In this document: positions 40,848 to 49,405 of the stretch, one piece after another
Position numbering within the stretch: position 1 is the stretch's first letter
How the letters are laid out: each line of letters begins with the position of its first letter
Source of the DNA: Alteriqipengyuania flavescens
GTDB lineage: Bacteria; Pseudomonadota; Alphaproteobacteria; Sphingomonadales; Sphingomonadaceae
Direction: 5' to 3'
DNA length: 64,000 nucleotides
NCBI RefSeq assembly: GCF_030406725.1
Contig: NZ_CP129107.1
Location: 1,840,501 to 1,904,500, forward strand
Notes under the pieces: generated by a model
Seen by the model: the letters and a program-made list of their open reading frames with translations, nothing else
What the model was told of the DNA's origin: nothing
Database searches by the model: none
Position numbers and translations under genes: made by a program

Positions 40848-41386
40848 CGGAGTTGGCTGAGAACCAAAAATTACCCACGCTTCGGCGCTTCTTTCGGAAG
40901 CTCCGCCGTTCCTTGCGCCCGCCCGCTACCGGCTGGGTGCGCCTGTTCCTCTTCGAACTCGCATGGCTCGCACCGGTTGTCGCACTTTGCGGCAATTTCG
41001 GTGGCTGGATCGCGTGGCAACCGGATTTCTCCGCCGACACCTTCAAGTTGCTCGCGATCGCGCTGATCGCCCCGGCATTGGGGGAGGAGCTGCTGTTTCG
41101 CGCAGCCTTGCTGCCCGCACCGGCGCCGGAGCGGTCGCTTCCCTTGGGCGCGATTGCCTTCTCGACGCTGCTTTTCGCCGCCTGGCACCCATTCCAGACG
41201 CTGGTGCACGACGGTCCCTTTGCGCAACTGATGCTCGAACCGACGTTCCTTCTTGCCGTGATCGCCCTCGGCGTAGCGTGCGCGCGGCTATATTGGCGCA
41301 GTGGTTCGATATGGCCGGCTGTCGCGCTCCACTGGCTCGTCGTCGCGGTGTTCAAGGCGCTGTTCGGCGCGCCGTTGCCGTGGTGA
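40841..41386 (+). CDS. CPBP (CAAX-like) intramembrane protease
   Basis: This is about 181 residues from the GTG start used here. It has two to four transmembrane helices and the CPBP signature: GEELLFRAALL with the Glu-Glu-x-x-x-Arg motif (Glu82, Glu83, Arg87), FAAWHPFQTLVHD with a conserved His, and ALHWLVV near the end. Bacterial members include type II CAAX-like endopeptidases and bacteriocin-immunity-like proteins. The start is uncertain: this GTG is part of the palindromic repeat, and the TTG at 40853 is an alternative. Confidence 0.65.
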   Translation: MTAELAENQKLPTLRRFFRKLRRSLRPPATGWVRLFLFELAWLAPVVALCGNFGGWIAWQPDFSADTFKLLAIALIAPALGEELLFRAALLPAPAPERSLPLGAIAFSTLLFAAWHPFQTLVHDGPFAQLMLEPTFLLAVIALGVACARLYWRSGSIWPAVALHWLVVAVFKALFGAPLPW

Positions 41387-41830
41387 AGGACAAGATACTG
41401 CTGTTCTTGCTTGTCGATAACGCGTTCGCATCACTTGCCAAGAATTCTAAGGACGATAAACTCGGAGCTGAGCGACGCTTTTATTGCAGCTCTCGGCGAC
41501 GTTGGGCCGGCTTTACAGTTTAATTCTTTCGATACGGCCCAACGTCGCCGAGAGCTGCAAATCAGCCTTAGCGTGGGCCAAACTTTTCACTTTCCGTCTG
41601 AGCGTTTTCACAGTGAAAAGTCTCCTCAGCTATTTGATCGTTGAGCTAGTTTTTGCCGGAATTCGGATGATTCGTCAAGCTCAAGAATCTGAATTTGTTA
41701 CGCTTTTCGGGATTTGGCCGCAGTTTCTTTGAGAGATAGTCGCGGAAGAATATTCGGCTTTGCGTGGGAAATGGAGGGGCTTTTCAGAGTTCTTGCCACC
41801 CGCACCCCGCCCGCCTAAATCCGCGCGGCC
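41387..41830. other. Gene-poor, lower-GC gap with strong inverted repeat
   Basis: About 440 bases without a supportable gene. Base composition is visibly more AT-rich than on either side (TTTTCACTTTCC, GAATTTGTTACGC). The main structure is a 26-bp perfect inverted repeat (listed separately). Short frames in the stretch have no family resemblance. It separates the CPBP protease from the LysR gene and may be a remnant of an insertion. Confidence 0.6.
41484..41560. repeat. Perfect 26-bp inverted repeat with 25-bp loop
   Basis: Arms at 41484-41509 and 41535-41560 are exact reverse complements (core GCTCTCGGCGACGTTGGGCC and its complement), with a 25-base AT-rich loop. The structure would be an exceptionally stable hairpin in RNA or DNA. 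It is not a REP of the types seen elsewhere in the window. No transposase lies between or next to the arms. Confidence 0.9.
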
Positions 41831-42643
41831 ATGAAGCGGACGCTCCTTCCCCTCAACGCCTTGCGCGTGTTCGACGCGGCGGCGCGCCATGTCAGCTTTA
41901 CCCGCGCAGCGGACGAGTTGGCGGTGACGCCGGCGGCCGTAGGCCAGCAGATCCGCGCGCTCGAGGATGTGCTGGGCGTCGTGCTGTTCCGCCGCACGTC
42001 CAAGGGGCTGGAGCTGACGGACGAAGGGCTGGCGGGGCTCGATTCCCTGCGCGAAGGCTTCATCAAGTTCGAAGAAAGCGTGCAGGCGATGCAGGCGGGG
42101 CAGGCGAGTGACCGCTATACCATCGCCGCGCCGCGCGAATTCTATGGCATGTGGCTCGCCCCGCGCCTGGCCGCTTTCCGCAAAGGCAATCCCGGCGCGC
42201 GCTTCACCTTCCATGCAGACGAGGATGCGGACTTCACCGAAGCCAACCTCGACTGCGCGATCCGGCTGGTCGAAGGGCCGGGCGATTTCGAAGGCATACA
42301 GCTGGCCCCTGCGCGCAAGGTGATCGTGGCGGCATCCGATGCCGGCCCCGACGCGCTCGAAGACTGGATCGAATGGCCCGGCGCCGCGCTGCCCGAAGAC
42401 GCCAAGCCCGTTCTGCAGGTCGGCAATGCGGGGCAGGCGCTTACCAGCGCATTGGCCGGGCTGGGCCGTGCGATCCTGCCTTTCCTGCTGGTCGAGGATG
42501 CGCTGGCCGACGGGCGGCTGGTCGCGCTCGAGGGGCCGAGCGAGGGTCGCCGGTCCTACTGGCTCGTCGCGCCGCGCCCGCAATGGCGGCAGGCCAAGAT
42601 GCGCGCGCTGGTCGCGGCCCTTTCGGGCGAGGCCGCCGCTTAG
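41831..42643 (+). CDS. LysR-family transcriptional regulator
   Basis: This is a 270-residue regulator. The N-terminal HTH (LPLNALRVFDAAARHVSFTR, then AADELAVTPAAVGQQIRALE) is of the GcvA/AmpR subtype. The C-terminal substrate-binding domain (YTIAAPREFYGMWLAPRLAA) follows. It normally binds DNA as a tetramer and is controlled by a small metabolite. It is slightly short at the C-terminus for the family. The target is not evident, as neighbours on both sides point the same way and no divergent gene is present. Confidence 0.92.
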   Translation: MKRTLLPLNALRVFDAAARHVSFTRAADELAVTPAAVGQQIRALEDVLGVVLFRRTSKGLELTDEGLAGLDSLREGFIKFEESVQAMQAGQASDRYTIAAPREFYGMWLAPRLAAFRKGNPGARFTFHADEDADFTEANLDCAIRLVEGPGDFEGIQLAPARKVIVAASDAGPDALEDWIEWPGAALPEDAKPVLQVGNAGQALTSALAGLGRAILPFLLVEDALADGRLVALEGPSEGRRSYWLVAPRPQWRQAKMRALVAALSGEAAA

Positions 42644-45153: not shown

Positions 45154-45960
45154 TCAGCGTTTGCGGGGCCGGTCGCGCTCCAGATCCTCCAGCATCGCCT
45201 GCGCAAGCTCGCGTTCCTCGGGCGTGGCGAAGCCGGGCAGTTCGGGAAAACCGTCTTCCCCGTCGCGGTCCCACGGGTCGCGCGGGCCCGGCTGGTCGGG
45301 GCCGAGGCGCTGCGCCTCCCGCCAGAACCGGCGGCGGCGATGGGTGTGGATCGCCAGGGCGAAGGCGAAGGCCCGCTGGTGACCCGCCCGCTGCGCGTCG
45401 GAAACCTGCCGGCGCGCTTCGGCCGCAAGCTCCTCGTACACCGGGTGGCCGGGGCCGATCTCCTGCTTGGCGTAGTGCTGCGGCAGGCGGTGCTGGAGGA
45501 GGAAGCGCAGCAGCGTGTTGTCCGGCTTGTCCCACCAGCCGAGGATCTCCCCGCCGGAGACGATGGGCGTGCGCGTGCCGGTGAGCGCCCGCTCGATCGC
45601 GCAATCGTCGATCCGCTGGAGCCCGCGCAGGACCGCCGCATCCCACGCGGCGGAGAACCCTTCTGCGCCGGGCAGGTGCTTCAGGCGATAGAGCGCCTCG
45701 GTCGACTTGCCGATGGAGCGCGCCGCCTTGCCGACGATGCCGGTGGCGGCGAGCGCGGCGACGAAGCGGCGCTGGCGATCGGGCGTGATGGAGTTGCTGC
45801 GCGGCGCCTTGTGGAGGAAGGGCGCAAAGGCGAGCAGCGGATCGTCCTCCCCCGGCTCCTCCCCCACCCAGGCCACGGCGGAATGCGCCTGCCGCGCGTT
45901 CTTGCGCGTGCAGGTGGCGGGAGGCTTTGCGGGCGAGCGAGGCTTGCGGTCTTTCGGCAT
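45154..45960 (-). CDS. HTH protein, terminase-small-subunit-like N-terminal half
   Basis: This is a 268-residue protein, basic at both ends. Residues ~60-115 (SITPDRQRRFVAALAATGIV, then GKAARSIGKSTEALYRLKHL) look like a helix-turn-helix of the type in phage terminase small subunits. The middle (ALTGTRTPIVSGGEILGWWD, LLRFLLQHRLPQHYAKQEIG) is conserved-looking but unfamiliar. No catalytic motif is visible. It is next to the low-GC island boundary but has the same GC-rich composition as the core genome. Function unknown. Confidence 0.65.
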   Translation of the reverse strand: MPKDRKPRSPAKPPATCTRKNARQAHSAVAWVGEEPGEDDPLLAFAPFLHKAPRSNSITPDRQRRFVAALAATGIVGKAARSIGKSTEALYRLKHLPGAEGFSAAWDAAVLRGLQRIDDCAIERALTGTRTPIVSGGEILGWWDKPDNTLLRFLLQHRLPQHYAKQEIGPGHPVYEELAAEARRQVSDAQRAGHQRAFAFALAIHTHRRRRFWREAQRLGPDQPGPRDPWDRDGEDGFPELPGFATPEERELAQAMLEDLERDRPRKR

Positions 45961-46316
45961 GACCGCGCACAGGATGCAGATTTCGGGTGAGTAGGAAAAT
46001 GGTTTCTGCCTAGCGCAAGCTCCGAGCCGTTAGGCGAGGCAAGGGCGACCGCCCGCCCGAGCTTATGCGAGGAAGCCAAGCGACGCGGACGCGTCGCGCC
46101 CGGCGTTTGAGGGACTAAACCAAAATGATGAGGAGCAGAAAGTTGGCATCTCGTCACTCGCTGAGACTTGCCATATTCGCTTGCTCGACGCGACGATGGA
46201 GGCATAGACGGGAGCAAACTTTCATTCATGGCATCGGTGCGCTATCGCCGACTAGACGCGCTGAGGCGTGTGACTCATCGCACTAAAAATTATGAGAACG
46301 GGGCGACAAGCTTTCG
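45961..46316. other. Gene-free left flank of the low-GC island
   Basis: About 355 bases between the HTH protein and the helicase gene, shifting from GC-rich to AT-rich sequence. It holds the palindrome CGACGCGGACGCGTCG (46081-46096) within a GC-rich block (CCAAGCGACGCGGACGCGTC). Beyond that I see no gene. The first part resembles sequence recalled near mobile regions of sphingomonads, a weak impression. The helicase promoter probably lies in 46230-46310, but no clear -35/-10 pair is visible. Confidence 0.5.
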
Positions 46317-48458
46317 ATGACACAGGTAATCTGGGGATCCACCGAAAAGCCCGTAACGAGCCAACGACTCGCGGAGGTGATTACCGAAGCAGGAAACGCG
46401 AGTGGCCTACTTTATGTCGGCTATCCGGTTCTCGCAGGTGCGGACGATGTCAGCTCTATCGACGCTCTTTGGATTAGCCCAGAAAAAGGTGTAGTGATTT
46501 TTCATTTAGTTGAGGGAGTTGATATTGGCGAGTTTAAAGAAATTCAGGACGATTTCGCCAATAAATTGGAGACGAGGCTACGATCTCATAAAGGCCTGAT
46601 GGAAGGCCGAACCCTTTTGGCAACACCACAAGTTATTACATTTGCCCCTCTTTCAGGGCAAAATGAATTCGATACAAGCTATCCGATCGCTTCGACTGAG
46701 ATTGGTCTGCAGCAGATCATTGCCAGTCTGTCTTGGTCCAGACCTGATCTTTTTGAACTTGCTCATTCTGTAATTCAATCAATCTCTACGATACGAAAAG
46801 GTAGGAAGCGCCAAGTGACGCGAGACGACTCTCGCGGGGCAATTTTAAAGAAGCTGGAAGATTCGATTGCAAATTTGGATTCATTACAAAGTAGGGCGGT
46901 TATTGAAACGGTAGACGGTGTCCAGCGTATCAGAGGATTGGCGGGCTCAGGAAAGACAATAATCCTCGCGCTAAAGGCTGCATATCTCCATGTTCAGAAT
47001 CCAGAATGGCGTATAGCCGTTACATTCAATACGCGCTCTTTGAAGGCTCAATTTGTCCGATTGATCGAAACCTTTGTGTTCGAGCAAACTAAGGATCAAC
47101 CGGATTGGGAAAATCTTCAAGTTATCAACGCGTGGGGCGGTCCAGGTGGTGGTGATCGGACCGGGGTCTACTATCAATTTGTTGTGCATAATGGCATTGA
47201 GTTTTGGGATTACGGCAGAGCAAAGAACCGTTTTACATCGCAGACGGCGTTTGCCGGAGTTACGAATTTAGCTTTGGCAGAAGTCAAAGTGTCTGCCCCG
47301 TTGTTTGATGCGATCCTCATTGATGAAGCTCAAGATTTTGATCCGAGCTTCCTGAGACTTTGTTACGAATCGTTGGGTATTGAAAAGAGATTGGTATACG
47401 CATACGACGAACTACAGTCTTTAACTGAGAGTAGCCTACCGCCTCCGGAAGAAATATTTGGTAGCGATGCGGAAGGAAACCCCTTAGTTACTTTCGACAA
47501 TGCGGGGCCGCACTCGGCAAGCCAGGATATTATTCTTGAGAAATGTTATCGTAATTCTGGACCCGTGTTGGCAACGGCACACGCTTTGGGGTTCGGTGTA
47601 TATCGCGATCAGGATCCAAATACTGGAACTGGCTTGGTGCAAATGTTTGACAGGCCTGAGTTGTGGCAGGACGTCGGTTACGAGATCAAAAAAGGGCGGC
47701 TGGAAGAGGGGCGCTCCGTAACTCTCGCGCGAACCAATGAGTCGAGTCCCGCGTTTCTGGAGGCTCCTGCGGTTGTAGATGATCTGATTGAATTTGTTGA
47801 GTTCAAGAACGAGGATGAACAAGCTGCATGGCTTGTTGGCCAAATCAAACGTAACTTGGAGTACGATGAACTCAAGGGTGACGATATTATTGTTATCAAT
47901 CCCGATCCTTTTACGACTGTTGCCCAAGCGGCTAAGCCTCGTCAGCTTCTGTTTTTAGATGGTATACAATCTCATGTGGCGGGGGTCGATACAGCGCGGG
48001 ATGTTTTCTTTAAAGCGGACAACTCCGTTGCGTTTACTGGCATCTTTCGGGCCAAAGGTAATGAAGCTGGCATGGTCTACGTCATCAACGGTCAAGATTG
48101 CTATGGGGAGCGCTTCAATGTCGGTAGAGTCCGAAATCAGTTATTCACGGCAATTACTAGAAGCAAAGCTTGGGTAAAAGTCTTGGGGTATGGACCATCA
48201 ATGAGCAAACTGAAGGATGAGTTCGAGAGGGTGAAGGCGAATAATTTTCAGCTGGAATTTACATATCCGACTGAAGAAACACGCAAGCATCTAAAGGTAG
48301 TGAATCGCGATCGGTCCATGGCAGAACAAAAGGCAGCCAAGGGCGCAGCAAAATCGGTTAATCGTCTCATTCAGGACCTGGCTGAAGGAAAGATTTTCAT
48401 TGAGGACCTGCCTACAGAGGATGTCGCTAAGCTGCGTAGCATCCTCAATGGTGAATAG
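46317..48458 (+). CDS. Superfamily 1 helicase/ATPase with degenerate nuclease-like N-terminus
   Basis: This is a 713-residue protein. Residues ~30-120 (GLLYVGYPVLAGADDVSSID, then ALWISPEKGVVIFHLVEG) resemble a NERD/PD-(D/E)xK-type fold, but the expected Glu-x-Lys is His63-Leu-Val, so catalysis is unlikely. A UvrD-like ATPase core follows: Walker A GLAGSGKT (207-214), Walker B LIDEAQDF with DEAQ at 336-339, FRAKGNEAGMVYVI near 577-590 and FTAITRSK (610-617, motif VI with Arg615). The C-terminal ~80 residues are helical and charged. Codons are AT-rich (TTA, ATA, AGA, AAT), unlike the neighbours. The downstream gene starts two bases after the stop. Probably a defence-related helicase (inference). 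Confidence 0.8.
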   Translation: MTQVIWGSTEKPVTSQRLAEVITEAGNASGLLYVGYPVLAGADDVSSIDALWISPEKGVVIFHLVEGVDIGEFKEIQDDFANKLETRLRSHKGLMEGRTLLATPQVITFAPLSGQNEFDTSYPIASTEIGLQQIIASLSWSRPDLFELAHSVIQSISTIRKGRKRQVTRDDSRGAILKKLEDSIANLDSLQSRAVIETVDGVQRIRGLAGSGKTIILALKAAYLHVQNPEWRIAVTFNTRSLKAQFVRLIETFVFEQTKDQPDWENLQVINAWGGPGGGDRTGVYYQFVVHNGIEFWDYGRAKNRFTSQTAFAGVTNLALAEVKVSAPLFDAILIDEAQDFDPSFLRLCYESLGIEKRLVYAYDELQSLTESSLPPPEEIFGSDAEGNPLVTFDNAGPHSASQDIILEKCYRNSGPVLATAHALGFGVYRDQDPNTGTGLVQMFDRPELWQDVGYEIKKGRLEEGRSVTLARTNESSPAFLEAPAVVDDLIEFVEFKNEDEQAAWLVGQIKRNLEYDELKGDDIIVINPDPFTTVAQAAKPRQLLFLDGIQSHVAGVDTARDVFFKADNSVAFTGIFRAKGNEAGMVYVINGQDCYGERFNVGRVRNQLFTAITRSKAWVKVLGYGPSMSKLKDEFERVKANNFQLEFTYPTEETRKHLKVVNRDRSMAEQKAAKGAAKSVNRLIQDLAEGKIFIEDLPTEDVAKLRSILNGE

Positions 48459-48460
48459 TC

Positions 48461-49120
48461 TTGGATCCCAGGGACGCGATCAAGGAAATTCATGATCTGA
48501 CTGGCAGTCTTATTGCCACCGGATTGTGTGTGGATCAGAATTACCCTTCTGAGATTATAGACGGAGCGGAATGCTCGGTTGCCTTCGGCAAGGATGTTGA
48601 TCTTTCGATCGTTCTCAAGAACGTGCCATATGTCGACGTTTACAAGGCACTGTCAGAGCGAAGGGCATTCAACATTAAGATGATTGATGGCGCGCTTATC
48701 CAGTTCCAGTATCGATTTTCCGGAGGGGATATTCAAGGTCACCGTCTCGCTTTCTTTCCCTCACCTGACTTGCAGGAATATCAGAACGACCCTGAGATTT
48801 ATGAGACCGATGACCTTTATGCAGATATGATAGCTAAGAATGTCGTAACGGTGCCCGTAAGATTTGATTACGATCCAGATTCTTTTGTCGATTATGAGCA
48901 TCCAGTTTCGCACCTAACATTAGGTCAATACAAGAATTGTCGTATTCCGGTTTCAGGACCAGTATCACCATTCATATTTCTGAACTTCATCCTGCGGTCT
49001 TTCTACAATACCCCATACCGAAAATTTTCCGCAGATATGGGAGAGGGCCATCTAGAATTTGGTTGCTCGATATCCGACTTGGAAAAAAGGCATATGCATA
49101 TTTGGGTGTCGTCCACTTAG
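48461..49120 (+). CDS. Unknown protein paired with the helicase (possibly DUF2290-like)
   Basis: This is a 219-residue acidic protein starting at a TTG two bases after the helicase stop; no better in-frame start exists nearby. Its most conserved-looking block is HPVSHLTLGQYKNCRIPVSG (147-166) followed by PVSPFIFLNFILRSFYN. This His/Cys-bearing signature resembles what I remember of DUF2290, not verified. No transmembrane helix, P-loop or known nuclease motif is visible. Composition is as AT-rich as the helicase. Tight spacing implies co-expression, so it is probably the functional partner of the helicase. Confidence 0.65.
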   Translation: MDPRDAIKEIHDLTGSLIATGLCVDQNYPSEIIDGAECSVAFGKDVDLSIVLKNVPYVDVYKALSERRAFNIKMIDGALIQFQYRFSGGDIQGHRLAFFPSPDLQEYQNDPEIYETDDLYADMIAKNVVTVPVRFDYDPDSFVDYEHPVSHLTLGQYKNCRIPVSGPVSPFIFLNFILRSFYNTPYRKFSADMGEGHLEFGCSISDLEKRHMHIWVSST

Positions 49121-49177
49121 CAGATAACCCCACCCTTGACCCTCCACCCGAATCCCCCTAAGTGCGCGGCCATCCGG

Positions 49178-49195
49178 TGTTGGACCTGTCCAACA
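49178..49195. promoter_or_regulatory. Operator-like palindrome upstream of the str operon
   Basis: TGTTGGAC and GTCCAACA are perfect 8-bp inverted arms around CT. The size and symmetry fit a dimeric repressor site, but its position, about 415 bases before rpsL and 57 after the island gene, leaves the target unclear. It may belong to the acquired island. Confidence 0.35.
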
Positions 49196-49405
49196 TCGGT
49201 CAGATAGAGCTGAACATTGCCGGTCATGTCCCGGGGCCTCTCGCCCAAGCTTTCCAGCTGGTGCGGTGGGGCTCTTTTCTATTGGAGCGGGTGCGCGAAA
49301 GCGCGAACCGTTCGGGGCAGCCGTCAAAGTAACCCGGTGGCCATGCGGCCCAGGGGTGGAGTGTTTCAGGCTCGTGCGGTTTCGCGTGTTCGCGCGTCGG
49401 TGGCT

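Follow-up and report, generated by a model that had tools for sequence, protein, structure and literature searches.

A 64,000-nucleotide stretch of the Alteriqipengyuania flavescens chromosome (contig NZ_CP129107.1, positions 1,840,501–1,904,500; hereafter the window, to which coordinates without a locus label refer) contains a two-gene unit that we read, with a probability of roughly 85%, as a horizontally acquired Helicase+DUF2290 anti-phage module, lodged in a slot upstream of rpsL in which sphingomonad relatives carry exchangeable cassettes, many of them defence systems. Our analysis provides the family identity, the strict pairing, the foreign composition, and the shared edges with different contents, while the block of phage T7 comes from Rousset 2022 (PMC9122126). 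The initial annotation of the window had already proposed an acquired, two-gene defence module, a proposal that composition, pairing, and family identity now support. The two open reading frames (ORFs) of the pair are as follows:

46317–48458, plus strand: helicase ORF, 713 amino acids, ATG start; SF1 helicase of the Helicase+DUF2290 system
48461–49120, plus strand: DUF2290 ORF, 219 amino acids, TTG start; probable effector

The genes lie on the same strand, helicase first, with the spacing of 2 bp that the initial annotation had described. The first protein matches the PADLOC model 'Helicase' (PDLC03002) with 1011.3 bits over residues 1–711 of 713 and Pfam UvrD_C_2 at 7e-8; the second belongs to DUF2290, matching Pfam PF10053 at 6.6e-52 and PADLOC model PDLC02999 with 292.8 bits. 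Because both PADLOC models and the DUF2290 Pfam family match, the pair is, by its sequence, Helicase+DUF2290, a named phage-defence system. In particular, the full-length helicase profile, the DUF2290 partner, the adjacency, order and strand, and the intact ATPase motifs of this system are all present, so that a unit for which no named system had been suggested receives its name from PADLOC, Pfam, and PMC9122126. Identity to three Escherichia coli copies, none known to be the copy cloned by Rousset, is 51–53% for the helicase and 40–41% for DUF2290. The pair had instead been likened to Gabija-type systems, which would make the first protein a UvrD helicase regulating a GajA nuclease. The sensor-effector logic is similar by analogy and weak GajB matches exist; these reach at most 15.6 bits, and the partner is a DUF2290 protein, for which neither a GajA-type ATPase nor a TOPRIM domain, nor any further family, is listed up to E 10. 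Membership in Gabija is thereby refuted, and a Gabija-type explanation is highly improbable.

The composition of the pair is foreign to its surroundings. GC content is 0.475 for the helicase gene and 0.450 for the DUF2290 gene, and GC content at third codon positions (GC3) is 0.457 and 0.473, respectively, as compared to 0.77–0.90 in eight neighbouring genes, which agrees with the AT-rich codon use noted at the outset. When GC content was calculated in 1-kb segments with a step of 100, 30 segments fell below 0.56, all of them starting at 45801–48701, the sole such stretch in the window. A smaller second dip is located at 41001–42000 (GC 0.597, AT skew −0.226). The host genome (2.72 Mb, one contig) is probably that of a sphingomonad also by its fusA-tuf sequence, whose nearest counterparts in named plasmid records are from Sphingopyxis indica (80.6%) and Sphingomonas (79.1%).

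The two genes are conserved as a pair. When genome contigs were scanned with the helicase alignment, 443 relatives were obtained, of which the best 80 were taken; three of these loci end at a contig edge, leaving 77 assessable. DUF2290 is directly downstream of the helicase in 75 of the 77: 71 copies are full-length, and 4 are shortened or split (L021, broken by inserted DNA; L046; L087; L094; L numbers denote loci). The intergenic gap has a median of −1 bp and is at most 20 bp in 67 of the 71 full-length pairs; three loci (L039–L041) have identical coordinates and scores and hence are not independent. In L021 (2394–6351), DUF2290 is split by an insert of ~3.3 kb with a transposase-like ORF, recognized by eye, and the helicase is intact. 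L093 and L100 are Latescibacterota helicases, the former followed by an ORF that by eye appears DnaJ-like. Both genes are also present in 13 of 13 assessable loci on viral contigs (17 in total, the other 4 ending at a contig edge), in 7 of 7 inspected plasmid loci from 13 matched records, and in 3 of 3 further alphaproteobacterial matches.

The distribution of the family is broad and sparse: the record titles among helicase relatives cover many phyla, and the family occurs in 1 of 98 genomes of the family and order and in 4 of 385 genomes of the class, this genome included in each. A search of 50,697 phage records gave no DUF2290 match at 1e-5. The genomic neighbours were analysed using the nearest ORFs of 150–900 amino acids, 138 in all (68 upstream, 70 downstream) from the 80 loci, which matched 298 PADLOC families at 1e-10 (a count of families, not ORFs, in a set without a matched control) and included type I specificity subunits in 8 of the 138. 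Specifically, the pair lies within a BREX locus carried by a conjugative plasmid of Thioflavicoccus (L007, 1–10567) and adjoins restriction genes in L002 and L005. Conservation as a pair, defence genes nearby, and sporadic occurrence outside the core genome, with foreign GC3, are what the initial annotation had expected of a defence module.

These data also bear on the proposal that the helicase serves the host in DNA repair or housekeeping, with DUF2290 as its small accessory protein. The SF1 UvrD-type core with intact motifs would suit such a role, as would the closest NCBIfam row for the helicase, the STM2767 helicase family, which at 118 of 550 bits is far below its cut-off; the lack of DUF2290 in 97 of 98 family and order genomes, the foreign GC3, and the occurrence on plasmids and viral contigs argue so strongly against it that we regard a housekeeping function as very improbable.

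The acquired pair sits in a slot bounded by the following elements:

45154–45960, minus strand: border gene, left side of the slot; 25 of 112 relatives have a similar gene that is within 6 kb of rpsL and points away from it
45961–46125, no strand: left edge; homology reaches 46111–46125 in 6 relatives
49130–49380, no strand: right edge, the rpsL leader; homology resumes at 49130–49135, just past the DUF2290 stop codon
49611–49982, plus strand: rpsL (S12), right side of the slot, first gene of rpsL-rpsG-fusA-tuf

We compared up to 10 kb upstream of rpsL, in some cases cut short by contig ends, in 112 relatives: rpsL was present in 115 of 119 family genomes, from which we excluded the genome studied here and two others whose rpsL was fragmentary or lay at a contig edge. 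In 25 of the 112, the DNA between rpsL and a similar border gene is different, and the core of the interval is lower in GC than its surroundings by 7 points or more (rounded values) in 20 of the 25, the others being L155, L176, L186, L195, and L212. On the right, homology resumes at 49130–49135 in 4 of the 7 relatives compared over the whole interval (L121, L124, L127, L128); with a query starting at 49121, the match begins at 49128–49135 in 9 of 41 relatives with a right match and further in for the other printed loci. On the left, homology extends to 46111–46125 in 6 of the 20 relatives with a left match (L135, L139, L142, L148, L167, L176) and stops at 45844–46007 in the remaining 14. The gene-free flanks pointed out in the initial annotation are real, with parts conserved in relatives. 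In this genome both flanks are single-copy apart from 21 bp of the left flank, which recur twice; the border gene family has paralogues, and the border gene itself has no PADLOC match. We infer that homologous recombination in the conserved edges probably carries cassettes into and out of the slot, because the two payload genes here include no recombinase.

A ~100-bp element of the left edge (46022–46125) is present twice, ~180 bp apart, in some relatives (L142, 2568–2887; L148, 7175–7525), and could be a recombination or regulatory element; its copy in the window has no Rfam match. No Rfam match to an RNA element was found between 45900 and 49620, and promoter- and terminator-like sites are fewer than in shuffled sequences.

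The contents of the slot in relatives include many defence genes. The PADLOC scan covered 30 of 40 payload ORFs of low GC, which belong to 21 of the 25 loci (L186, L195, L212, and L237 not included), and gave strong defence matches in 9 of the 21 loci: a methyltransferase with a neighbour of no assigned name (L139 and L148, which are related to each other); a C5 methyltransferase with an Eco29kI-type nuclease (L154); PD-Lambda-5 (L141); a Thoeris ThsB-like TIR, in an ORF lacking the first 48 profile positions (L155); OLD (L173); a CBASS cyclase with a 2TM effector (L179); DRT6 (L182); and HEC-01 A and B (L188). Weaker matches are present in two loci (L167, AAA, 55.7 bits; L180, a reverse-transcriptase piece, 56.9 bits), and the 10 other scanned loci gave no convincing PADLOC match, the CARF row of L131 (27 bits) falling on its helix-turn-helix. 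Outside the slot counts, five of the scanned loci are AT-rich upstream of rpsL and have no border gene: L168 encodes an AAA ATPase (AriA, 73.8 bits), L150 and L136 match HEC-09 (25.8 bits) and mad2 (42.3 bits), respectively, and L133 and L152 have no match. The low-GC payloads of L142 and L176 were scanned and have no PADLOC match.

We further compared congeneric genomes in a turnover set comprising ten genomes of genus g7, three of g16, and 13 of 40 searched in g15; the border gene is present in 16 of its 20 additional loci. Low-GC ORFs of these loci, with ORFs on the conserved right edge set apart, were compared at 1e-6, both among themselves and against the payloads described above. The similarities found are two reverse transcriptases (L250 and L252, 34% over 203 amino acids), a 96-amino-acid stretch common to L257 and L182, and LuxR-type proteins (L264 with L131 and L237), with no others at this threshold. 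Because payloads of congeneric loci share few similarities, slot content, compared at the level of sequence, changes between species of one genus. Seven proteins of six turnover loci, chosen by eye, were also compared with PDB sequences, and matched AriA of PARIS (L265, 8e-14), retron reverse transcriptases (L250, 2.9e-17; L252, 3e-10), AriA/PtuA/GajA-type ATPases (L254, 1.9e-6), and a Schlafen 8-like region (L260, 855–1868, 0.0011); the L249 protein and the second L265 protein had no match.

The rpsL-upstream slot might alternatively be a general insertion site for AT-rich DNA in which the pair resides by chance. The 14 of 25 relatives without a PADLOC match, whose slot genes include LuxR-type, Tle1-like, TonB-like, and TerB-like ones, favour this possibility; the Pfam rows obtained for 20 slot ORFs comprise these types and DUF234, among others. 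Against it, PADLOC matches at 1e-20 or better were obtained for 12 of 30 payload ORFs, as compared to 0 of 94 ORFs beyond the border gene (24 loci), among which the best match is 3.4e-15 and, at 1e-5, six families each hit a single ORF. Part of this contrast reflects acquired versus native DNA: it cannot separate 'defence' from 'acquired', because the control is largely native DNA and the payloads were picked for low GC. We consider a chance occupancy of a general site rather doubtful, and prefer an acquired anti-phage module in a slot of exchangeable cassettes.

The helicase of this module retains the elements of an SF1 ATPase, and conservation was counted in 62 aligned helicase proteins, this one included:

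46935–46958, plus strand: Walker A GLAGSGKT, residues 207–214; G210, G212, K213, and T214 in 62 of 62
47322–47333, plus strand: Walker B/motif II DEAQ, residues 336–339; D336, E337, and Q339 in 62 of 62, A338 in 59
48150–48167, plus strand: helicase motif AITRSK, residues 612–617; T614 and R615 in 62 of 62
46317–46796, plus strand: N-terminal domain, approximately residues 1–160 (cut chosen by us); its model partly aligns with the human SLFN11 linker region

The UvrD-type ATPase read from GLAGSGKT, DEAQ, and AITRSK in the initial annotation thus stands, with K213, T214, D336, E337, Q339, and R615 identical in 62 of 62. The same annotation described the N-terminus as NERD-like, lacking Glu-x-Lys, and 'dead' as a nuclease. 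The first of these descriptions has weak backing: NERD is absent among the 16 Pfam families that the 62 members match at 0.01, and a PADLOC model described as NERD+UvrD matches at 42.8 bits over two stretches, of which the better lies within the helicase part (184–374). A NERD nuclease was accordingly rejected for this domain, which also lacks Glu-x-Lys in this protein. The other two descriptions hold for this protein and not for the family as a whole. Specifically, the domain retains D49, G58, E66, Q77, and D78, and has Val at residue 68 (E66-G67-V68; 46518–46520), where 14 of 62 members combine Lys with D49 and E66 and 19 of 62 have Arg. Because position 68 is Val, a working PD-(D/E)xK nuclease appears unlikely here and could be present in some relatives. 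The residue-68 pattern may reflect a nuclease site that was gained or lost as the family diverged.

For an AlphaFold model of the helicase built with 62 sequences (predicted local distance difference test score, pLDDT, 88.4), the best solved folds are UvrD, with Z 27.8, and human SLFN11 (7zel), with Z 26.7, each matching in the helicase core. The alignment with SLFN11 9erd comprises 420 residues and pairs model residues 1–624 with SLFN11 404–897, with Z 23.1 and a root-mean-square deviation (rmsd) of 4.8. The Foldseek top row is SLFN11 7zep (E 1.4e-16, ~670 columns), with a poor superposition (rmsd 18.7), and TM-scores over the SLFN rows are low (0.27–0.42; identity 12–13%). UvrD families are matched by 62 of 62 members and Pfam SLFN-g3_helicase by 9 of 62 at 0.01, this protein not among the 9; a search of PDB sequences with the helicase profile at 0.1 returned seven sequences, six of UvrD/PcrA type and one tRNA methyltransferase (0.027).

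The DUF2290 partner contains one conspicuous block, which the initial annotation had singled out and which proved to be a strongly conserved part of the family, as counted in 63 sequences:

48899–48958, plus strand: conserved DUF2290 block HPVSHLTLGQYKNCRIPVSG, residues 147–166; H147, H151, and R161 in 63 of 63

D76, R134, and F173 are likewise invariant, and D136 is present in 61 of 63. These residues look like an active site; the term 'enzyme' for DUF2290 is based on residue conservation, because no tool gave a confident fold. The DUF2290 model (63 sequences, pLDDT 87.2) was compared with known folds, and the frataxin (Z 5.4) and PcyA rows were rejected, falling in the range that the tool calls common.

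Published work on Pseudomonas aeruginosa PAO1 points to a possible second function for the family. Plasmid pNUK73 disturbs fitness and gene expression, SOS included, in this strain, and both are restored by inactivation of helicase PA1372, which has 44% GC against a genome median of 67% and occurs together with PA1371; PA1372 mutations also relieve the high rep expression tied to pNUK73 (PMC4410645). PA1371 is listed as DUF2290 (PMC8407307), and PA1371/PA1372 are named Helicase+DUF2290 (PMC11637435). The pair could on this basis be an anti-plasmid, or plasmid-conflict, module rather than an anti-phage one, with the helicase acting on replication of the plasmid and DUF2290 in a tuning role, and the compensation of plasmid cost by PA1372 mutations speaks for this. 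A family member blocks T7 (PMC9122126), the pair itself is carried on plasmids (13 records), and many defence genes are among its neighbours, all of which speak against it. We judge a purely anti-plasmid role somewhat unlikely, although anti-plasmid and anti-phage activities are not exclusive.

For the anti-phage module, the helicase fold, the DUF2290 residues, and the PAO1 plasmid data together suggest a sensor of unusual replication coupled to a DUF2290 effector. In this mechanism, which is tentative in its details, the SF1 helicase would patrol DNA and be triggered by single-stranded DNA or by the replication intermediates of a hard-replicating invader, such as T7 and some plasmids; its N-terminal domain would, in this protein, couple rather than cut; an ATP-driven change in the helicase would activate DUF2290; and DUF2290 would be an enzyme, most likely a nuclease, with a site formed by D76, R134, D136, H147, H151, and R161, that cuts invader or host nucleic acid and so stops infection.

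Several observations weigh against the module, its slot, or its mechanism as we read them. Helicases lacking DUF2290 within ~10 kb occur in 2 of 77 loci (L093, L100); Asp...Glu-x-Lys is present in 14 of 62 relatives, so that the N-terminal domain could be a nuclease in part of the family; and a catalytic fold sought for DUF2290 with Foldseek and structure comparison gave no match better than E 0.057 (PDB), E 0.054 (viral models), and Z 5.4. With respect to the slot, a defence match is lacking in 14 of 25 relatives (10 that were scanned and 4 outside the scan), and 4 of 25 border genes are only 37–41% identical (L154, L180, L186, L219). The anti-phage activity of this pair is a prediction from family identity, at 40–53% identity to the E. 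coli copies, and the PAO1 study (PMC4410645) ties the helicase to plasmid rep expression, a link that is no direct pointer to a nuclease effector.

The system is already named and a family member has been tested elsewhere; this pair is a new member, and the rpsL-side slot is the more interesting result. The slot is a small fixed site in sphingomonad genomes at which one cassette can be read per genome, and its low-GC payloads without a defence name (L142, L176; and, outside the PADLOC scan, L248, L255, L258, L259) are places to seek new defence systems. No description of an rpsL-side hotspot, and no mechanism paper for Helicase+DUF2290, was found in the open-access literature, in each case a weak negative. 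For the mechanism, the six DUF2290 residues above are the candidates, and further leads are a putative SLFN11-like helicase arm in the model and the literature link to plasmid cost.

Comparison with known systems places the pair as follows. Rousset 2022 cloned systems from P4-like satellites and reported that the Helicase+DUF2290 member specifically inhibits phage T7 (PMC9122126); a 2023 review describes the role of the helicase domains as unexplored (PMC10952713), and the Hachiman paper counts this helicase among defence helicases (PMC12278908). Our pair shares with the Rousset system both protein families, gene order, strand, and acquired context, and differs in location, a chromosomal slot upstream of rpsL here versus a P4 satellite or prophage hotspot. 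PA1371–PA1372, known for plasmid cost, resembles it as a low-GC helicase with a partner in a small island of a GC-rich genome, a likeness drawn from published descriptions. Gabija (GajAB) and Hachiman (HamAB) offer an analogy, in that a helicase sensor is coupled to a second protein; the partners differ from DUF2290, and there is no GajA or HamA match.

Human Schlafen 11/14 (group III) provides the remaining comparison. SLFN11 has a linker (residues 354–576) and a helicase domain (577–901) that binds single-stranded DNA; the protein localizes to stalled forks, and its ATPase is autoinhibited (PMC9482658, PMC11615386). SLFN11 tops the Foldseek list, with Z 23.1–26.7; in contrast, UvrD fits the helicase core equally well (Z 27.8), the TM-scores are low, and neither protein gave a Pfam match to the Schlafen core nuclease up to E 10. 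It is unlikely, as we weigh it, that Helicase+DUF2290 represents a bacterial relative of the Schlafen architecture in split form, in which a linker and SF1 helicase would, like SLFN11, sense single-stranded DNA where replication is overactive and DUF2290, as a separate enzyme, would replace the nuclease arm; if true, this relationship would join phage defence, Pseudomonas plasmid cost, and SLFN11-type replication-stress immunity in one mechanism.

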